Origin: Inconstantimicrobium porci
Lineage (GTDB): Bacteria > Bacillota > Clostridia > Clostridiales > Clostridiaceae
Assembly (NCBI RefSeq): GCF_009696465.1
Contig: NZ_VULX01000006.1
Location: 52,405 to 116,404, forward strand
Direction: 5' to 3'
DNA length: 64,000 bases
A program made the position numbers and the translations under genes. This document shows, in pieces, positions 5,701 to 61,416 of the stretch (its first letter is position 1; each line of letters opens with the position of its first letter). Under the pieces are notes generated by a model, which saw only the letters and a list, made by a program, of their open reading frames with translations, had not been told where the DNA came from and made no database searches.

Positions 5701-6249
5701 AATGAAGAATTAAAATCCGCTATTATACGTATATATAAAGCTAATAAAGGCATCTATGGTGCTCCTAGAATCCACCATATACTTAAATTAAAAGGCTTCA
5801 ATGTATCATTGAAAAGAGTTCAAAGAAGAATGACTGAACTTGGGCTTTGTGCAATAACAGTAAAAAAATACAAACCGCATTCAAATAAAAAAGTAGCAGA
5901 AGGTTTGGAAAACGTTTTGAAGAGAGATTTTACAACTACATCTATTAATGAAAAATGGGTAGGAGATATTATATATATTAGTAATGATTTAAAGCAACTG
6001 TGTAAAGAATTTAATATTACACAATCTTTTAGTAAAAAAGGTTGTCCATATTACAATGCATGCATAGAATCTTTCCACTTTTCAATAAAGAAGGAAGAAA
6101 TCTATAGAACTACATATCGTACCTTCGAAGAAGCTAATATAGCAATATTTAAATATATTGAAGGTTGGTATAATAGAAAAAGACTACACTCTTCGATTAA
6201 TTACATGACTCCAGATCAATGTGAATTACTGGCTAGAAGTGTAATATAA
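5701..6249 (+). pseudogene. IS3-family transposase OrfB, N-truncated and internally deleted
   Basis: The frame begins after a TAA at 5698 with no start codon. It reads through the HTH_21-type region (Tyr-Gly-Ala-Pro-Arg-Ile, then Arg-Arg-Met-Thr-Glu-Leu-Gly-Leu) and the start of the integrase core (Trp-Val-Gly-Asp-Ile-Ile-Tyr-Ile). It then jumps to the end of the core (Cys-Pro-Tyr-Tyr-Asn-Ala-Cys-Ile-Glu-Ser-Phe-His) and the family C-terminus. The segment that normally carries the second catalytic Asp, about 70 residues, is missing, so the DDE triad is incomplete and the element is dead. The tail at 6250-6290 resembles an IS3 right end. No upstream orfA or left inverted repeat was found. Confidence 0.85.
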
Positions 6250-7485: not shown

Positions 7486-8481
7486 ATGGGCAAGGATCAT
7501 ATTAAAGATACAAATTTAAAAAGCGAATATCCATTAAGACTTAAAGCATTTAATACTTATATGGATTCTGTCAAAGGTTCTTCTGAGAATACAACGTTAA
7601 GTTATTCAAGAGATCTGATGATGTTTTTTAGATTTTTAAAAATACAAAGAAATTTATGTGATAAAAATACTCATTTTGAAGAAATAAATGTTAGCGATAT
7701 TAAGGATGATTTCTATAAACAGGTCACTCTAACTGAAATGTACGATTTCTTAGTCTTTTCAAAGAAACAACTAAAAAACAGTAGTGCTACTATTTCTAGG
7801 AAAATAGCAAGTTTAAGGGCCTTCTTCTCTTTTCTGCATAGAAAACTTCAAGTTATCGATATTGATTACTCACTCGATCTTGATAATCCAAAGATAGGTA
7901 AAAGAAAGATTAAGTATATGGATCTTGCTGAAGCGCAGAATCTTTTAGACAGCGTTAAAAGCCGTAACTATACGAGAGATTACTGCATCCTTACACTATT
8001 CTTAAACTGTGGCTTAAGACTAGCTGAGCTTTGTAGCATCGATATTTCTCATATTAAGAACGATACTATAAGGATCATTGGCAAAGGAGATAAAGAGCGT
8101 TTTGTTTATCTTAACGAATCTTCACTTTCCGCCATTGAAGCATATCTACCTGATAGAAAAGCAAAACTCGACTCTCTATCCTCGCCTACTGAAAAAGAAG
8201 CTTTATTCATCTCAGAAAGAGGAAATAGAATTGCAAAACGCACTGTTCAGGAAATTGTTGAAAAACAACTTAGGAATGCTGGAATATCAGGGCAAGGGCT
8301 TTCTACACATAAACTTAGACATACTGCTGCTACTCTACTCTATAAATACGGAAAGGTAGATATACTTGTACTCAAAGAAATTTTAGGGCATGAAAATATT
8401 TCAACAACACAGATTTATACTCATACTGATAATGATATGATAAGAAATGCAGTAAAAGTTAACCCGCTTAATAAACTTTAA
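7486..8481 (+). CDS. Tyrosine recombinase of the XerC/XerD type
   Basis: Site-specific tyrosine recombinase with an N-terminal SAM-like core-binding domain (about residues 12-125) and a C-terminal catalytic domain (about 140-325). The catalytic residues are visible: Arg178 (LRLAEL), Lys200 or Lys203 (GKGDKER), His275 and Arg278 (THKLRHT), His302 (LGHEN) and the nucleophile Tyr311 (IYTHTD). At 331 aa it is about 30 longer than XerC/XerD because of an N-terminal extension and an insertion near 60-80. Such proteins resolve chromosome dimers at dif or act as element integrases. No phage genes surround it, which favours a housekeeping Xer. The ribosome site is AGGTGG, 8 bases before the ATG. Confidence 0.9.
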   Translation: MGKDHIKDTNLKSEYPLRLKAFNTYMDSVKGSSENTTLSYSRDLMMFFRFLKIQRNLCDKNTHFEEINVSDIKDDFYKQVTLTEMYDFLVFSKKQLKNSSATISRKIASLRAFFSFLHRKLQVIDIDYSLDLDNPKIGKRKIKYMDLAEAQNLLDSVKSRNYTRDYCILTLFLNCGLRLAELCSIDISHIKNDTIRIIGKGDKERFVYLNESSLSAIEAYLPDRKAKLDSLSSPTEKEALFISERGNRIAKRTVQEIVEKQLRNAGISGQGLSTHKLRHTAATLLYKYGKVDILVLKEILGHENISTTQIYTHTDNDMIRNAVKVNPLNKL

Positions 8482-8484
8482 TGC

Positions 8485-8586
8485 AAAAAAAGGTGAAAGA
8501 CATATTACGAAGAATCCGCCCCAACACGCTCCAAGTCGTTTCTTCATATGTCTTTCGCCCTCTTGATAACTAAAGGACGAAATCAC
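8485..8586 (-). repeat. Hairpin element copy A, with T7 tail on the minus strand
   Basis: The outer arms GGTGAAAGACATAT (8492-8505) and ATATGTCTTTCGCC (8546-8559) pair over 14 bases with one wobble. An inner GAAG/CTTC step follows, then a variable centre. On the minus strand the stem is followed by seven T, so the RNA would end there like an intrinsic terminator. The arms, the GAAACGAC strand and an upstream CTTTAGT-AT...GAGGGC block recur at 29348-29445. An ATG inside the hairpin (8547) starts a frame reading MKKR...FVICL. Both copies lie between convergent genes, downstream of a minus-strand gene. Confidence 0.7.
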
Positions 8587-8714
8587 ATTCTGTCACTATT
8601 TTACACAAATGTATAAACCCTTATTTTCAAGACTTTATGGTATTAAAAACGATATTTTTAAGTGCAATTTCTTTGTTATTAAAAAAAAGAGTTTTAAAAT
8701 TTATATATTTTAAA

Positions 8715-10139
8715 TTATTCTATCATTATTCCTGCAACTTGAATTTTTTCATTAATATTAGCTGGACACTTATAAATGATACGTGCTGTCCCATCTTCTG
8801 AAATCTTCACCTTTATATTTTCATAGTCAGCTTTGTTATATGATATTGTGCCAATACTGATAGATGTATAATCATTAAGGCTTTCAAGCTCTACTAGTGC
8901 CCTTTCAATTTCATAGATTTGACGTAATCTCAGCATACATAATACAGAAAAGATGATATCATCAAATTGACATTTTTTAAATGCAGACCACTTTTCTTTT
9001 AAATTATTTTTACGTTTTTCTTCTATGAGGATTAAATTATAGTTTACAGAATCATATTCTTTTGCTGCAATTTCATATTTTTTCTTTACCTCTTCTATGT
9101 TACTTTCAATCTTTCTAATGTTATCTTCAGCATTTGGAATTTCGGTATCATAGTCCTTTATCTTTTCATAAAGTGCAGATATCTCATCATTGGTAAACTC
9201 AAGTTCATCATATAAATCGTCAAGCTCATCTTCCATTTTATTGATCTTATGCTGATTATCGCTATTAATAACTGATGCTTTTGCTGATTCAACTTCTAGA
9301 TTCTTTTTATCGATTATAGACTGCAGTTCAATCTTATCTCTCCTGTACTCAGCAATCTTAAACTGCGAATTTTCTATAGATGCTTTGTAACCATCTATTT
9401 TTGATTTCTGATCACTAATATCTTCAATAAGCTCTTTAATCTTCTCATCATAGAAATCAGCGTTATCTTTAAGTTCCTTTACATAATTCTTAAAGGATAT
9501 AAAATCATCATCTTCATTATTTTTCTTAAGTTCCTCATCACCCTCTACATAACTAGGAAGACTCTTATTCTCTGGAGTAAAACACTTTCCAAATGAAAGA
9601 ATAGAACTATATACTATATAACTGAGAATTTCCCTATTTAACTTTCTACTGCCGTTTATAGGATTAAATGATGTAAAGCTACTTTTTATCCTTGCAAGCT
9701 CTGATGGATTCTCAAGTTGATTATAAATATAATCAGCCTTATTTGCAGTTGTCATATTGTCGCTAAGATCATACAGCTTTGCAGCTTCACCAATTACATA
9801 AGCAGAAAGTGCATCATCAGACATATTGAAATTATTTAATTTTAGTTTATTTATCAATGCATTAACTAGGTGTTCATTCAAAGTATTCATACTGAGAGAA
9901 TTCAATTCCTGCTTTTTTTCTCTCATTATGTCACATACATTTTTAACTTCGATTTCTTTAATATTAGGGTTTTTTCCTAGCTTATCTCCTAAAAAATTAA
10001 CTGTCTTAATTATTTTCTTTCCCACAGACTGAAACACTGGCTTTGAAAAATTCTTAATGTTTACGGACTCAAGTATAACTATTTTATCTATAAGTTCTTC
10101 GTGTGACAATCTGTTCAGTCCATCAAAGATGTTTGGCAT
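8715..10139 (-). CDS. Hypothetical coiled-coil protein, 474 aa
   Basis: No recognised family. The order along the protein is: a helical N-terminal region (1-190); an acidic linker near 200-220; a long heptad-rich coiled coil (about 225-370) with repeated Glu/Lys/Leu/Ile; and a C-terminal ~100-residue domain ending in beta-rich sequence. There is no signal peptide or membrane segment. A GAGGTGA ribosome site precedes the ATG. It could be a structural or membrane-associated scaffold, but nothing in the neighbourhood gives a role. The hairpin element at 8485-8586 lies about 130 bases beyond its stop and may serve as its terminator. Confidence 0.7.
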   Translation of the reverse strand: MPNIFDGLNRLSHEELIDKIVILESVNIKNFSKPVFQSVGKKIIKTVNFLGDKLGKNPNIKEIEVKNVCDIMREKKQELNSLSMNTLNEHLVNALINKLKLNNFNMSDDALSAYVIGEAAKLYDLSDNMTTANKADYIYNQLENPSELARIKSSFTSFNPINGSRKLNREILSYIVYSSILSFGKCFTPENKSLPSYVEGDEELKKNNEDDDFISFKNYVKELKDNADFYDEKIKELIEDISDQKSKIDGYKASIENSQFKIAEYRRDKIELQSIIDKKNLEVESAKASVINSDNQHKINKMEDELDDLYDELEFTNDEISALYEKIKDYDTEIPNAEDNIRKIESNIEEVKKKYEIAAKEYDSVNYNLILIEEKRKNNLKEKWSAFKKCQFDDIIFSVLCMLRLRQIYEIERALVELESLNDYTSISIGTISYNKADYENIKVKISEDGTARIIYKCPANINEKIQVAGIMIE

Positions 10140-13146: not shown

Positions 13147-13150
13147 AAAT

Positions 13151-13250
13151 ACAGCGGAATGCAATACTTGTACCGCAGACTAAATCGTCTTTCGTTCAAG
13201 AGACAACTTCCCGTTCCCTTGACACTTAACGCACAAATACCTACTCTGTA
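13151..13250 (-). promoter_or_regulatory. Tetrahydrofolate (THF) riboswitch upstream of folT
   Basis: Read on the minus strand, the element has the conserved blocks of the folE-type THF class. In order these are ACAGAGTAGG (P1 5' side), GCGTTAAGTGT, ACGGGAAGTTG, ACGAAAGACGA, GCGGTACAAG, and the closing TTGCATTCCGCTGTA that pairs back to P1. It lies ~120 bases before the folT start, so tetrahydrofolate would repress folate uptake. Confidence 0.92.
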
Positions 13251-27956: not shown

Positions 27957-28093
27957 TTAATAATCCCCCTGATAAACATATAAATGTATAGTTTATATTA
28001 TAATCTTTATTATTTTTAATGTAAATTTACTTATTGATATGTATTTTATAAGAATGTATAATACTGATGTTATTAATATACGGAGGTTTAAAG

Positions 28094-28843
28094 ATGGATA
28101 TAGACAGAATATTAAATTTTTCAACGACAGCTGGAAAGATTATGCTACAAAGTGGTGGCGAAATATATAGAGTTGAAGAAACAATATTTAAAATTTGCAA
28201 ATCATTTAGCATTGAAGAGGTTGATGTATTTGCATCTACAACTTCTATTGTTGTTACAGCAATAGATAAAGGTAAAATTCATACAATTGTCAAGAGAATA
28301 ACCTCTAGAGGCGTAAATTTAAACAAGGTACATAAAATTAATTCATTGTCTAGAAAAATCTATAATGAAAAACTTCCCATAGAAGCATGTGAAAAAGAAC
28401 TAAAGGATATTGATGTAGATGATTCGTACTCTTTGAAAAAGAAATTATTTTATGCAGGAATCTCAACATCTACTTTTACGATACTGTTTGGCGGCAATGC
28501 TTCTGATTTTGTTGCTGCATTTTTTATCGGAATAATTGTACAATTTATATCAGAAACACTATGTCGAACTTATCTTAATCCTTTTTTTAGAAATGGATTA
28601 TGCGGGGCAGCTGTTGCACTATTCTCTATAATATTTTTAAAAGCAGGTTTTATAAAAGGAATAGACAAACTTATTGCAGGAACTATCATGCTGCTTGTTC
28701 CAGGTTTATCGCTTACAAATTCAATAAGAGATATACTTGAAGGACAACTTGTTGCTGGACTTACTAATGCAGCTGAAGCTTTATTTGTTGGAGTATCAAC
28801 TGCTGTTGGAACATTTCTTGTAATACAATTACTAATGATGTAG
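28094..28843 (+). CDS. Threonine/serine exporter, ThrE N-terminal subunit (YjjP-like, DUF1212)
   Basis: 249-residue membrane protein. A cytoplasmic ThrE-type N-terminal domain (about 1-110, with Leu-Gln-Ser-Gly-Gly-Glu-Ile-Tyr-Arg-Val-Glu-Glu-Thr) is followed by five hydrophobic spans. In many Firmicutes the amino-acid exporter ThrE is split into this half and a small partner, as found here. An in-frame ATG lies upstream at 28067, but the CGGAGG site at 28081-28086 lies inside that extension and points to the ATG at 28094. Confidence 0.9.
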   Translation: MDIDRILNFSTTAGKIMLQSGGEIYRVEETIFKICKSFSIEEVDVFASTTSIVVTAIDKGKIHTIVKRITSRGVNLNKVHKINSLSRKIYNEKLPIEACEKELKDIDVDDSYSLKKKLFYAGISTSTFTILFGGNASDFVAAFFIGIIVQFISETLCRTYLNPFFRNGLCGAAVALFSIIFLKAGFIKGIDKLIAGTIMLLVPGLSLTNSIRDILEGQLVAGLTNAAEALFVGVSTAVGTFLVIQLLMM

Positions 28844-28857
28844 AGGGAGATTAAATT

Positions 28858-29295
28858 ATGATTATAGAAGTGATTGCGGCATTTTTTGTTGCTTATGGAT
28901 TTGGCATACTATTTAATATTAAGGGAAAATACCTTTTTTTATCAGGCATAGCAGGTTCAATAGGATGGTTTGCATACAAGCTATGTTTAAACCTTGGAAG
29001 CAGTGATAATCTTGCATACTTTATTGCAGCATTATCGTTCAGCATATTCTGTCAGATTTGTGCGATAAAATACCACACACCTTATACTATTTTAAGTATA
29101 TGTGCTCTGATACCTTTAGTTCCAGGCTATGGTGTTTACAACAGCATGTATCAGTTCTTAACAGGAAACTACATTAAAGCTATAGACTATGGTGTAACAA
29201 CATTATCAAATGCTGGTTCATTAGCTCTAGGTGTAATACTCATATCATCAATCTTTAGAACAAAAAAAGGATTTAGGTATCTATTAAAAAAATGA
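28858..29295 (+). CDS. Threonine/serine exporter, small subunit (YjjB-like, DUF3815)
   Basis: 145-residue membrane protein with four or five spans and the family segment Pro-Leu-Val-Pro-Gly-Tyr-Gly-Val-Tyr. It starts 14 bases after the first subunit, with a GAGGGAG site, so the two form one operon and one transporter. Export of threonine and serine is the known role in related proteins; it is inferred here. Confidence 0.88.
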   Translation: MIIEVIAAFFVAYGFGILFNIKGKYLFLSGIAGSIGWFAYKLCLNLGSSDNLAYFIAALSFSIFCQICAIKYHTPYTILSICALIPLVPGYGVYNSMYQFLTGNYIKAIDYGVTTLSNAGSLALGVILISSIFRTKKGFRYLLKK

Positions 29296-29332: not shown

Positions 29333-29419
29333 TTACATAAGAAAATATAAAAAAAGGGCTACAAGACATATTACGAAGCCGACCTTGTTCCCAGCGGTCT
29401 CTTCAGGTCGTTTCTTCAT
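29333..29419 (-). CDS. Candidate hydrophobic micro-peptide, 28 aa, inside hairpin element B
   Basis: An ATG at 29419, preceded by an AGGA stretch, starts a 28-codon frame. It has a basic/charged N-terminus (MKKR then acidic residues) and an uninterrupted hydrophobic C-terminus containing GFVICL. The same MKKR...FVICL pattern occurs in copy A (ATG at 8547). The start site and the frame lie inside the hairpin, and a T7 run follows within the frame. The transcript may therefore terminate before the frame ends, in which case the peptide is not made. Confidence 0.35.
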   Translation of the reverse strand: MKKRPEETAGNKVGFVICLVALFLYFLM

Positions 29420-29445
29420 ATGTCCTGCAGCCCTCATATTACTAA
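29348..29445 (-). repeat. Hairpin element copy B, with T7 tail on the minus strand
   Basis: The outer stem GGGCT...GACATAT pairs with ATATGTC...AGCCC, and the stem is followed by seven T on the minus strand. The core strands GACATATGAAGAAACGAC and CTTCGTAATATGTCTT are identical to copy A at 8485-8586, while the centre differs in sequence and length. Here the centre has its own CGACCT/AGGTCG stem. The upstream CTTTAGT and GAGGGC blocks are shared too. The element lies between convergent genes, 3' of flagellin. Confidence 0.7.
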
Positions 29446-29489
29446 AGAATGAATTTGCATTTCATAAAGAATATACTTATAGCCTTCAA

Positions 29490-30341
29490 TTATTGTCCTA
29501 ACATTTTCTTTAGCATGTCTACCATGTTCTGTCCCTGTTTATTTACTTGTGCCACTAAAGACTGATCAACCTGCATGAGGATGTTGTTTTTAGCGTACTC
29601 CATTGCTTCTTTAGCTATATCGGCATCCAAAATTCTTGATTGATAAGATGTCAAATTTTCAATTGCATTACCCTGATTCTGAACTATAAACTCAAGTCTG
29701 TTCATAGTTGCACCAATAACAGCACGCTTTCTTGACACATCGTTTATAGCATTTTTTACAGCATCCATAGCTTTTTGTGCATTTTCCTGTGTATCAATTT
29801 TAGCATCACCTATACCTATTTGAGCTGCATTCATATCATGCATTTTTACAGAAATATTCTGATTACTGTTTGCACCAACATGAATCTTAATAGTATTGTC
29901 ACTTTTATCAATATTACTATTTCTAGTTGAATCAAATAATGGCATTTCGTTAAATTCAGCATCCCTGCCAATACGATTAATTTCAGCTTTAAGTTGTTGA
30001 AATTCAATATCAGCATATTTCCTATCTTCAGGTTTTAATGTACCATTGGCACATTGAGTGGCAAGTTCATTCATTCGCTGTAGAATTGAGTGTACACTAT
30101 CCAAATATCCATCTTCAGTCTGAAGAAGTGAGATGCCGTCTTCTGAATTTCTTTTAGCCATTTCGAGTCCTCTAATTTGGGATTCCATTCTCTGTGATAT
30201 AGCAAGACCTGCGGGATCATCAGCAGCGCTATTAATTCGCTTTCCTGTTGATAATCTAAACATACATCTATTCATATTAAATTGATTAATACCCATATTT
30301 CTAAGTATCGGCAATCCCATTGTCCACCAGCTTATCTGCAT
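29490..30341 (-). CDS. Flagellin
   Basis: 283-residue flagellin with the D0/D1 N-terminal helix (Leu-Ser-Thr-Gly-Lys-Arg-Ile-Asn-Ser-Ala-Ala-Asp-Asp-Pro-Ala-Gly-Leu-Ala-Ile-Ser) and the C-terminal D0 helix ([30 protein letters not shown]ough Leu-Gly-Gln). A short central D1/D2 region carries little surface variation. The first ~12 residues are unusual: two Trp and a Pro replace the normal Arg-Ile-Asn-His-Asn segment. No other flagellar structural gene, CsrA or FliW lies nearby, and no sigma-28-type promoter was visible. The GGGAGG site is strong. Confidence 0.92.
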   Translation of the reverse strand: MQISWWTMGLPILRNMGINQFNMNRCMFRLSTGKRINSAADDPAGLAISQRMESQIRGLEMAKRNSEDGISLLQTEDGYLDSVHSILQRMNELATQCANGTLKPEDRKYADIEFQQLKAEINRIGRDAEFNEMPLFDSTRNSNIDKSDNTIKIHVGANSNQNISVKMHDMNAAQIGIGDAKIDTQENAQKAMDAVKNAINDVSRKRAVIGATMNRLEFIVQNQGNAIENLTSYQSRILDADIAKEAMEYAKNNILMQVDQSLVAQVNKQGQNMVDMLKKMLGQ

Positions 30342-50732: not shown

Positions 50733-50780
50733 AAAAAAAGCCGACTTTAATCCAGGCTTTTCTGCCCAGACGGTCGGCTT
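50733..50780 (-). terminator. Conditional terminator of the ZTP riboswitch
   Basis: AAGCCGAC (50780-50773) and GTCGGCTT (50745-50738) pair on the minus strand and are followed by T7. The 5' arm overlaps the 3' end of the aptamer, as expected for a transcriptional on-switch. Confidence 0.88.
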
Positions 50781-50833
50781 GCTTTACGATCATACTCCAT
50801 GTGGTAACTCCACTTCCGTCAGTCATATGACCA
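50763..50833 (-). promoter_or_regulatory. ZTP (ZMP) riboswitch, pfl motif
   Basis: On the minus strand the conserved pfl blocks appear in order: GACTGACGGAAGTGGA, TTACCACATGGAGTATGAT, and a pseudoknot partner GCCGACCGTCTGGGCA. This class binds ZTP/ZMP and induces purine and one-carbon genes when 10-formyl-THF is short. It sits between the promoter region and the AICAR formyltransferase gene. Confidence 0.95.
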
Positions 50834-50948
50834 TCATTAATTACATTTTATAGCATACATAGTCTTGTGTCAAGAACATTTATCTACATATAACTTTTAT
50901 TGTTCGTATTTATATACAAATATGCCATTCATTCTTATTGTATCACTT

Positions 50949-60589: not shown

Positions 60590-60722
60590 TACCCCAATAA
60601 ATCTTCTTATTTTTCAGGAAACAATCCTGTAGGATTTAGCACCACGAAAAAAATAAATGAGATTTCTTTCAGGTTGCTGGGTTTCATAGGGCCAGTCCCT
60701 CCGCCACTCTTAATAAGATCAA
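60590..60722 (-). promoter_or_regulatory. SAM-I (S-box) riboswitch upstream of metN
   Basis: On the minus strand the S-box core is clear: AGAGTGGCGGAGGGACTGGC, CCTATGAAACCCAGCAACC, a variable stem, GGTGCTAAATCC, and the closing P1 strand. The P1 arms are around 60715 and 60605. High SAM would favour the terminator at 60541-60567 and shut off the methionine transporter gene. Confidence 0.96.
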
Positions 60723-60792: not shown

Positions 60793-61416
60793 TTATTTAT
60801 TGTCATCAATGACCATCTTAGTTAAAACTTTAGTCCCATCAATTATAATCGAAACGCCATTACCTGGATGTGTAGACGAACCTATAAAATAAAGGTTGCT
60901 TATTTCCTTTGATTTTAAATGTGGTCGTAAATAAATACTCTGATACAGTGCAGGTGAAAGACCAAATGCTGTTCCATAATATGAATTAAATCTGTCTCTA
61001 AGATCATATGGTGTTAGGTAGCCTTCAAATTTAATGTGCTTTTCAATATCTTTAAGGCCTTCTATTTTAGTGACTGTATCCATCACCACATTTCTGTAAT
61101 TCTGAATTTCACTTATATTCCACTTAATCCTGCTAACCTTTAAGTTTGGCCCACGCACCATTATGTTCATCACTGTATCATTCTTATCACTGCATAAAGT
61201 ATCATCCACTGCACTTGGATAATAAATATACAAGCTTGGGTAATATGTCAGATTACCCTCATCAATAAGTTTAAAGCCTTTTTCATACTTTACATTCACC
61301 TTTCCTCCAATTGTAGATTCCTTTTCTATTATAGTAACATCAAATCCCTCATTTAAAAGCCTGGCGGCAGTACAGAGCCCCCCTATACCTGAGCCAATAA
61401 TAACAACTTTTTTCAT
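60793..61416 (-). pseudogene. CrtI-type phytoene dehydrogenase-like gene with internal in-frame deletion
   Basis: The first ~60 residues are a classic FAD-binding start (Lys-Val-Val-Ile-Ile-Gly-Ser-Gly-Ile-Gly-Gly-Leu) followed by Glu-Lys-Glu-Ser-Thr-Ile-Gly-Gly-Lys-Val. The last ~140 residues match the C-terminal half, ending Tyr-Phe-Ile-Gly-Ser-Ser-Thr-His-Pro-Gly-Asn-Gly-Val. The family is ~490-500 aa and this frame is 207 aa, so about 280 residues are missing near residue 65 with the frame kept. The ATG at 61416, after AAAGGTG, is the likely start. Function as a desaturase is unlikely. Confidence 0.85.

Follow-up and report, generated by a model that had tools for sequence, protein, structure and literature searches.

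Two-hairpin repeats behind predicted transcription terminators in Inconstantimicrobium porci: a probable family of non-autonomous mobile elements

Introduction

To our knowledge, few bacterial elements land on transcription terminators, group IIC introns being the clearest case. Non-autonomous elements of the IS200/IS605 type carry hairpins at both ends, produce no target duplication and keep a fixed orientation to their target, and the Skipping-rope motif is a long hairpin found near terminators. Group IIC (bacterial class C) introns are described as inserting behind Rho-independent terminators (PMC3522654) and as recognising a DNA stem-loop (PMC10190682), while the SPRITE, BOX and RUP repeats of Streptococcus pneumoniae are presented as short, dispersed, intergenic and stem-loop forming, SPRITE being likened to a Rho-independent terminator (PMC10969869).

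The family described here, an element of about 200 bp with two hairpins (P1 and P2), was met in a 64,000-nucleotide stretch of the genome of Inconstantimicrobium porci (hereafter the window), and stands beside MITE-like repeats such as SPRITE and, by its landing site, beside group IIC introns, without showing the full defining set of features of either. Like SPRITE, BOX, RUP and MITEs it is short, dispersed, intergenic and stem-loop forming; going by the descriptions of those repeats, it is set apart by left ends that mostly lie after existing terminators in a fixed orientation, and by stems that change while their pairing is kept and the tip stays nearly fixed. Many copies and presence or absence at an orthologous site (the latter at one locus, in two relatives) are shared with the classical DDE-type MITE, but terminal inverted repeats are lacking, the P1 arms being located at the left end and before an internal CCTTTAG box. 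The fixed orientation and the position behind terminators, seen for 26 of 38 left ends, recall group IIC introns, whereas the small size, the lack of any ribozyme match in the 11 and 19 loci searched against Rfam and the lack of any RVT_1 hit that is not Drt3b-like separate the two. Hairpins, fixed orientation and the want of a convincing target duplication are likewise reminiscent of the IS200/IS605 type, but P1 is unlike P2 and no shared end was found in the four Y1 loci compared.

The initial annotation of the window had reported two hairpin copies that could not be matched to an RNA class, and this judgement stands: in the window and in sets of 11 and 19 loci, no Rfam family, Skipping-rope and the other motifs included, attains its gathering score on the element. 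Matches to the two copies at E up to 10 (miRNA families; RAGATH-6, 25 bits against 170) were below gathering and are read as chance, as is a T-box match of 28 bits, likewise below gathering; a literature search with the tip strings gave no relevant title among the matches listed.

Two copies in the window

Re-reading of the sequence finds copies A (8485-8586) and B where they had been reported; on the minus strand both carry GACATATGAAGAAACGAC, CTTCGTAATATGTCTT and a CTTTAGT...GAGGGC block, their centres are unlike, the hairpin is followed in both by seven T (plus-strand A7 at 8485-8491 in A and 29349-29355 in B), and the flanking ORFs confirm that each lies between convergent genes. The spans given take in no more than the 3' hairpin; copy A extends to about 8682, and a conserved 5' domain upstream of P2 had been missed. 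With a 204-nt element as blastn query, copy A corresponds to positions 60889-61086 of its contig (C56), that is 8485-8682 of the window; the covariance model R1 introduced below scores it at 105.8 bits over 8483-8590. The features of the two copies are as follows.

8485..8682, minus strand: copy A, full-length element (blastn, 88% identity over positions 1-199 of the 204-nt query)
8681..8688, minus strand: left-junction run of eight T (T8) in copy A, behind the 8715-10139 ORF (sequence)
8663..8671, minus strand: P1 5' arm GAAATTGCA of copy A (sequence; helix GAAATTGCA/TGTGATTTC)
8587..8592, minus strand: promoter-like -10 box CAGAAT of copy A (weak sequence pattern)
8579..8587, minus strand: P1 3' arm TGTGATTTC of copy A (sequence; pairs with GAAATTGCA)
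8570..8577, minus strand: TCCTTTAG box of copy A (sequence; kept in the 46-copy alignment, present in C. gallinarum)
8492..8562, minus strand: terminator-like hairpin P2 of copy A (folding z -3.5; P2 covariation in 92 copies)
8485..8491, minus strand: T7 tail of copy A (sequence)
29451..29462, minus strand: remnant of the P1 3' arm, AAATGCAAATTC, of copy B (alignment)
29441..29447, minus strand: CTTTAGT box of copy B (sequence)
29356..29434, minus strand: hairpin P2 of copy B, directly 3' of the flagellin gene (-43.1 kcal/mol, z -7.1; R1 111.5 bits)
29349..29355, minus strand: T7 tail of copy B (sequence)

Copy A lies between an integrase gene (7486-8481, plus strand) and an ORF on the minus strand (8715-10139), and copy B between ThrE-like genes (28067-29295, plus strand) and a flagellin gene (29490-30341, minus strand), of which it may be the terminator. 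Both hairpins fold better than shuffled sequence (z -3.5 for A, z -7.1 for B); in copy B the 5' domain is unrecognisable in the alignment apart from the remnant listed above. The integrase gene adjoining copy A is of the tyrosine-recombinase type, and an ORF with an rve integrase core (5809-6249, plus strand) is also found on that side. Elsewhere in the window, Rfam places three riboswitches on the minus strand: THF (13150-13250), ZMP/ZTP (50757-50836) and SAM (60604-60719).

Architecture and copy number

A complete copy, ~200 bp long, consists of the left end TTAATGTNTAGG, the P1 5' arm GAAATTGCATT, about 70-80 nt, the P1 3' arm AATGCAATTTC, the box TCCTTTAG (CCTTTAG box), a linker, the long hairpin P2 and a T-run, and the flanks are unrelated from copy to copy. 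When up to three mismatches are allowed, the 18-mer GACATATGAAGAAACGAC is found at 53 places in the genome of the organism (3.2 Mb, 74 contigs) and the reversed pattern at 12, so that its repetition is not a matter of chance. Alignment of 46 of these places (seven three-mismatch places were left out, one of which, L110, was recovered by the covariance model) showed that all 46 behave as copies of the family. The covariance model R1, built from them, yielded at least 94 matches at E up to 1 among the best 150 of 2712 candidates; at least 61 are confident hairpin copies (E about 1e-4 or better), 46 known by pattern and 15 added by R1, and the 33 left over are weaker and in many cases represent the reverse strand of the same hairpins. 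In ten of the 15 added copies TATG[C/T]AGAGC replaces TATGAAGAAA, defining a second subfamily in which the stem GACCTAT/ATAGGTC is frequent. The high-copy two-hairpin repeat is thus real, and the initial annotation, which had proposed a covariance-model search for further copies, understated its extent: many were found in this genome and in other Clostridium genomes. The hairpin copies are unevenly spread over the contigs, none of the 61 being located on the 449-kb C1 and seven on the 101-kb C2; the same contrast sets C1, C12 and C23 against C2, C5, C9, C14 and C52.

When searched by blastn in the same genome, the 204-nt element gives at least 41 matches (best 40 of 124 candidates) and its 115-nt 5' part at least 40 (best 40 of 82 candidates); 39 of 40 matches to the 5' part start within its first 12 bases and end at various points, some of which resemble deletions through short repeats. 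Twelve copies have P1 without P2; in six of these the element stops at GTCCTT or GTCCTTT and unrelated sequence follows. Many older copies are reduced to the hairpin, with no recognisable 5' domain. Behind P2, the segment's final 14 nt contain at least four T in 32 of 46 copies and at least five in 29, the remaining 14 having no run of four; since P2 also folds below shuffled sequences, the element has the stem and T-run of an intrinsic terminator, though not in every copy. A structured micro-gene, one of three readings offered initially, is rejected because segment lengths differ by non-multiples of three and because five copies (L027, L030, L039, L046 and L047) read ATG TAG at the candidate start.

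Covariation of the two helices and the nearly fixed tip

Examination of the stems for covariation, also proposed at the outset, shows that both P2 and P1 covary. For P2, the arms of 92 copies (46 and 15 of this genome, and 31 mainly from C. gallinarum; L143, L172 and L211, which were not cut automatically, are absent from the count) were aligned outward from TAT/ATA, gap-free, over 16 positions. Standard pairs occupy 94.4% of the cells, and 14 positions have changed on both sides; re-dealing the 3' arms lowers the pairing to 73.5% on average and 77.2% at most (500 shuffles), and sliding the arms by -1, 1, 2 or 3 lowers it to 37-64%. Re-dealing leaves the relatedness of the copies in place, but the excess is also seen when the main subfamily is taken by itself, with 93.8% pairing against at most 87.0%. 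For P1, the longest helix formed by a copy's own arms has a mean of 8.20 Watson-Crick pairs in the main subfamily against up to 7.83 after re-dealing (35 copies, 200 shuffles), and of 8.57 against up to 7.80 in the C. gallinarum-type set (30 copies), while in the nine copies of the second subfamily the value of 6.78 does not go beyond every shuffle (up to 6.89). The arms vary in concert, as in GAAATTGCATT/AATGCAATTTC, GAAAGTACGT/ACGTACTTTC, GAAAGTGCAC/GTGCACTTTC and AGGAAAGGATAAA/TTTATCCTTTCCT.

The tip of P2, CGACTTGGAGCG...CGACGGAG, is nearly fixed: all six invariant columns in a set of 31 diverse hairpins fall within it, an invariance that is partly built in, given that 16 of the 31 were found via the tip pattern; the 15 of this genome were not. 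In some copies of the main subfamily its inner half is altered to GGGCGGAGG or GAGGTCGG. Read by hand, the tip would form two tandem sheared G.A pairs with a UU bulge between them, an arrangement absent from the output of the folding program.

Position behind terminators and genes

The left end could be read in 38 of 40 matches (one left-truncated and one unfetched match were dropped), and in 34 of the 38 it comes after at least four T. A hairpin followed by a T-run precedes the left end in 26 of 38 cases at -6 kcal/mol or better and in 23 at -9, as compared to 12% and 4.75%, respectively, of 400 control T-runs; the controls, drawn from 481 further runs of at least five T in the window, include coding sequence, and therefore the enrichment may partly reflect selection against insertion in genes. 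Copy A is among the 12 of 38 left ends with no hairpin passing -6 kcal/mol, none having been found before its left T8 run, and so makes an exception. The upstream hairpins are unlike from site to site.

A simple ORF rule applied to the 61 copies gives two flanking ORFs for 56, four copies inside a short ORF and one at an edge. The upstream ORF is on the strand of the element in 48 of the 56 (28 convergent, 20 tandem), so that the convergent gene ends reported for A and B hold for 28 of 56 copies and are part of a wider rule, that of the co-oriented upstream ORF. By such insertions the family could repeatedly give rise to tandem terminators in Clostridium.

Three copies are preceded by attenuators at Rfam gathering score, L071 and L080 by T-box leaders and L078 by a SAM riboswitch; all three consist of P1 without P2 and are placed between the attenuator and the ORF. 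A further T-box match, at L108, is below gathering. We infer that a complete copy at sites like the first three would switch the gene off, an expectation into which L108, which is complete, does not fit. Copies behind T-box and SAM attenuators, between switch and gene, could rewire regulation. A promoter-like box is also present in L078, L071 and L080 and might allow the switch to be bypassed.

Distribution among other genomes

Searched in 206 genomes of the family, a degenerate 24-mer derived from I. porci was found in its own genome only, and therefore stem and core sequences differ between species; an exact search of genome_contigs and viral_contigs with the same 24-mer, in which near records may be left out, gave no match, and the 204-nt query against 58 genomes gave, in six relatives, short matches near E 0.01 that are read as chance. 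R1 also finds the family in three further genomes. The tip pattern retrieved 69 stretches from genome_contigs, namely 30 in C. gallinarum, two in C. nigeriense, three in C. sartagoforme, two in Clostridium sp. MAG28, 23 in one Bdellovibrionales assembly and nine others; its two places in viral_contigs resemble chance in coding sequence. The architecture in C. gallinarum is the same (terminator, TTTAGGAAATTATA, TATAATTTCCTTCCTTCAG, P2 with the tip, T-run), and it recurs in other genomes with different stem sequences.

With an E limit of 0.01, a second covariance model (R2), built from the 31 diverse hairpins, has matches in 16 of 225 genomes searched across the order, and in ten of the 16 at least 17 of the best 21 candidates pass. 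The occurrence of the family in Clostridium is patchy: 14 of the 16 genomes belong to one genus (g18), within which the family is present only in places, one is the genome under study and one belongs to g55, while the other genome of the same genus as I. porci (G001) gave no match to the 204-nt query, the 24-mer, R1 or R2.

The assembly JAGRAY010000000 (Bdellovibrionales HKST-UBA30) holds a palindromic repeat at 23 loci, L146 and L203 included, with the tip CGACTTGGAGCG..GCGACGGAG. Its tip is the same, its hairpin is different, its ends, by eye, are TATAGTA/TACTATA-like, and it looks unrelated; sharing of the tip with a repeat from another phylum would suggest that both are bound by a common factor. 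Long hairpins around the tip are also found at L150 (a Clostridia assembly) and L161 (Eisenbacteria); of the nine stretches counted as others, the remaining seven resemble chance in GC-rich sequence. The tip hairpin of L150 (6153-6240) adjoins an RNase P RNA gene. A role as CsrA sponge or decoy, suggested by the GGAG motifs, was considered and rejected, because four of ten element-rich genomes have no CsrA hit (G105 and G116, 88% and 86% complete; G108 and G118, 100% and 96%).

Mobility and alternative readings

One empty site was found: a C. gallinarum copy lying behind an ORF in an 8-kb stretch is absent at the orthologous place in two relatives (G101 and G121), in which the flanking gene, a hairpin-like sequence, the T-run and the same downstream GTAGCATAAA are present and the element is missing. 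The comparison concerns one locus at about 81% identity, where the exact junction is unreadable and two more distant relatives are not alignable. In L135, from C. gallinarum, a left end appears to follow the T-run of another copy. Strings at the left and right junctions give no convincing target duplication (p=0.27 for 18 C. gallinarum-type copies, p=0.024 for 12 copies of this genome).

In our reading, to which we give a probability of roughly 0.6, the high-copy family of two-hairpin repeats that includes copies A and B is a non-autonomous mobile element, which would settle behind intrinsic terminators and bring its own predicted terminator. Among the guesses first offered, which were a small RNA family, a mobile palindromic repeat and a micro-gene, the mobile repeat is the one best supported, by the many loci with unrelated flanks, the occurrence in other species and the empty site. 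The element would move, its insertion would require the hairpin and T-run of the target, and P2 with its T-run would terminate transcription, so that insertion behind a gene would cost the host little. That the family is mobile and tracks terminators is probable; the targeting rule can be put to the test in a tiny non-coding family of this kind, which has its own predicted terminator and preserves two helices and a tip through compensatory change.

A broader proposal, tentative and in our estimate unlikely, is that the family represents a new class of mobile nucleic acid, which would move from one terminator to the next and be recognised through a portable module at its apex (CGAC-UU-GGAG / CGAC-GGAG, two tandem G.A mismatches with a UU bulge between them), and that unrelated hairpin repeats in Clostridia, Bdellovibrionales and Eisenbacteria have taken up the module as a docking tag for a shared mobilising or protecting factor.

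The near-invariant tip and the covarying stems would also suit a dispersed family of small RNAs, in which each copy is a transcription unit with a promoter in the P1 loop and P2 as terminator, the tip binds a protein or ligand, and the copies, however spread, are kept for their RNA. This account, which we regard as somewhat unlikely, is favoured by the retention of the hairpin in diverged copies that have lost the 5' domain, and by a candidate promoter box, TGG-TAGAAT or TGG-TATAAT, just before the P1 3' arm in many 5'-domain copies of this genome (the 55 rows with such a box mix in reverse-strand and unrelated places, hence no count is given). The promoter-like region is, however, missing in L109 and L111 here and in L243 and L169 of other genomes, and a promoter is not taken as defining because other species and many copies are without that part; moreover, copies lacking the tip are common, and searching by pattern favoured copies in which the core is retained. 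Far less probable, and indeed very improbable, is that the copies are ordinary, immobile intrinsic terminators alike by descent through duplication or gene conversion: P2 with its T-run is terminator-like (at least four T in 32 of 46 copies, as above), but the flanks differ between copies, the element possesses a second conserved helix and a left end beyond the terminator, one copy is missing from its orthologous place, and the left end of L135 appears to follow another copy's T-run.

An RNA-mediated route seems doubtful to us; here a transcript with the U-run of P2 at its end would be copied into DNA where another terminator has its T-run, much as in group IIC introns or in target-primed reverse transcription. 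The position behind terminators agrees with that described for class C group II introns (PMC3522654), the copies carrying P2 have a common 3' end, and left-truncated copies (L018 and the second copy of L020) abut or nearly abut a T-run near the predicted start site. Yet full-length copies begin upstream of the predicted promoter, so that a transcript starting there could not carry the left end; copies without the 3' hairpin are frequent, Rfam matched no group II intron in the loci searched, and the genome's single RVT_1 hit has its best score as the phage-defence protein Drt3b, for which reason a group IIC engine was rejected as well.

Candidate engine

For the mobile element proposed above, the likeliest engine is, in our view, a single-stranded-DNA (HUH-type) transposase acting in trans, and this is the weakest step of the explanation. 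It is favoured because the orientation to the target is fixed with no convincing target duplication, because the element's two ends do not form inverted repeats, and because the right end lies at the base of a hairpin (P2 and T-run, or P1 and CCTT in many shortened copies). No autonomous relative was seen among the blastn matches listed (best 40 of 124 and best 40 of 82 candidates). The genome has six Y1 transposase genes; in the four loci compared (L251 and L252 were left out), blastn matches between the element and the ends of Y1 insertion sequences were at chance level only, and L104 and L105 share an insertion sequence of their own. Two of the six Y1 genes (L106 and L252) lie, by eye, close behind a hairpin with a T-run, which is a lead only. 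The locus L102 (G000:C33) carries a DRT type 3-like pair, Drt3a and Drt3b, with a predicted role in phage defence.
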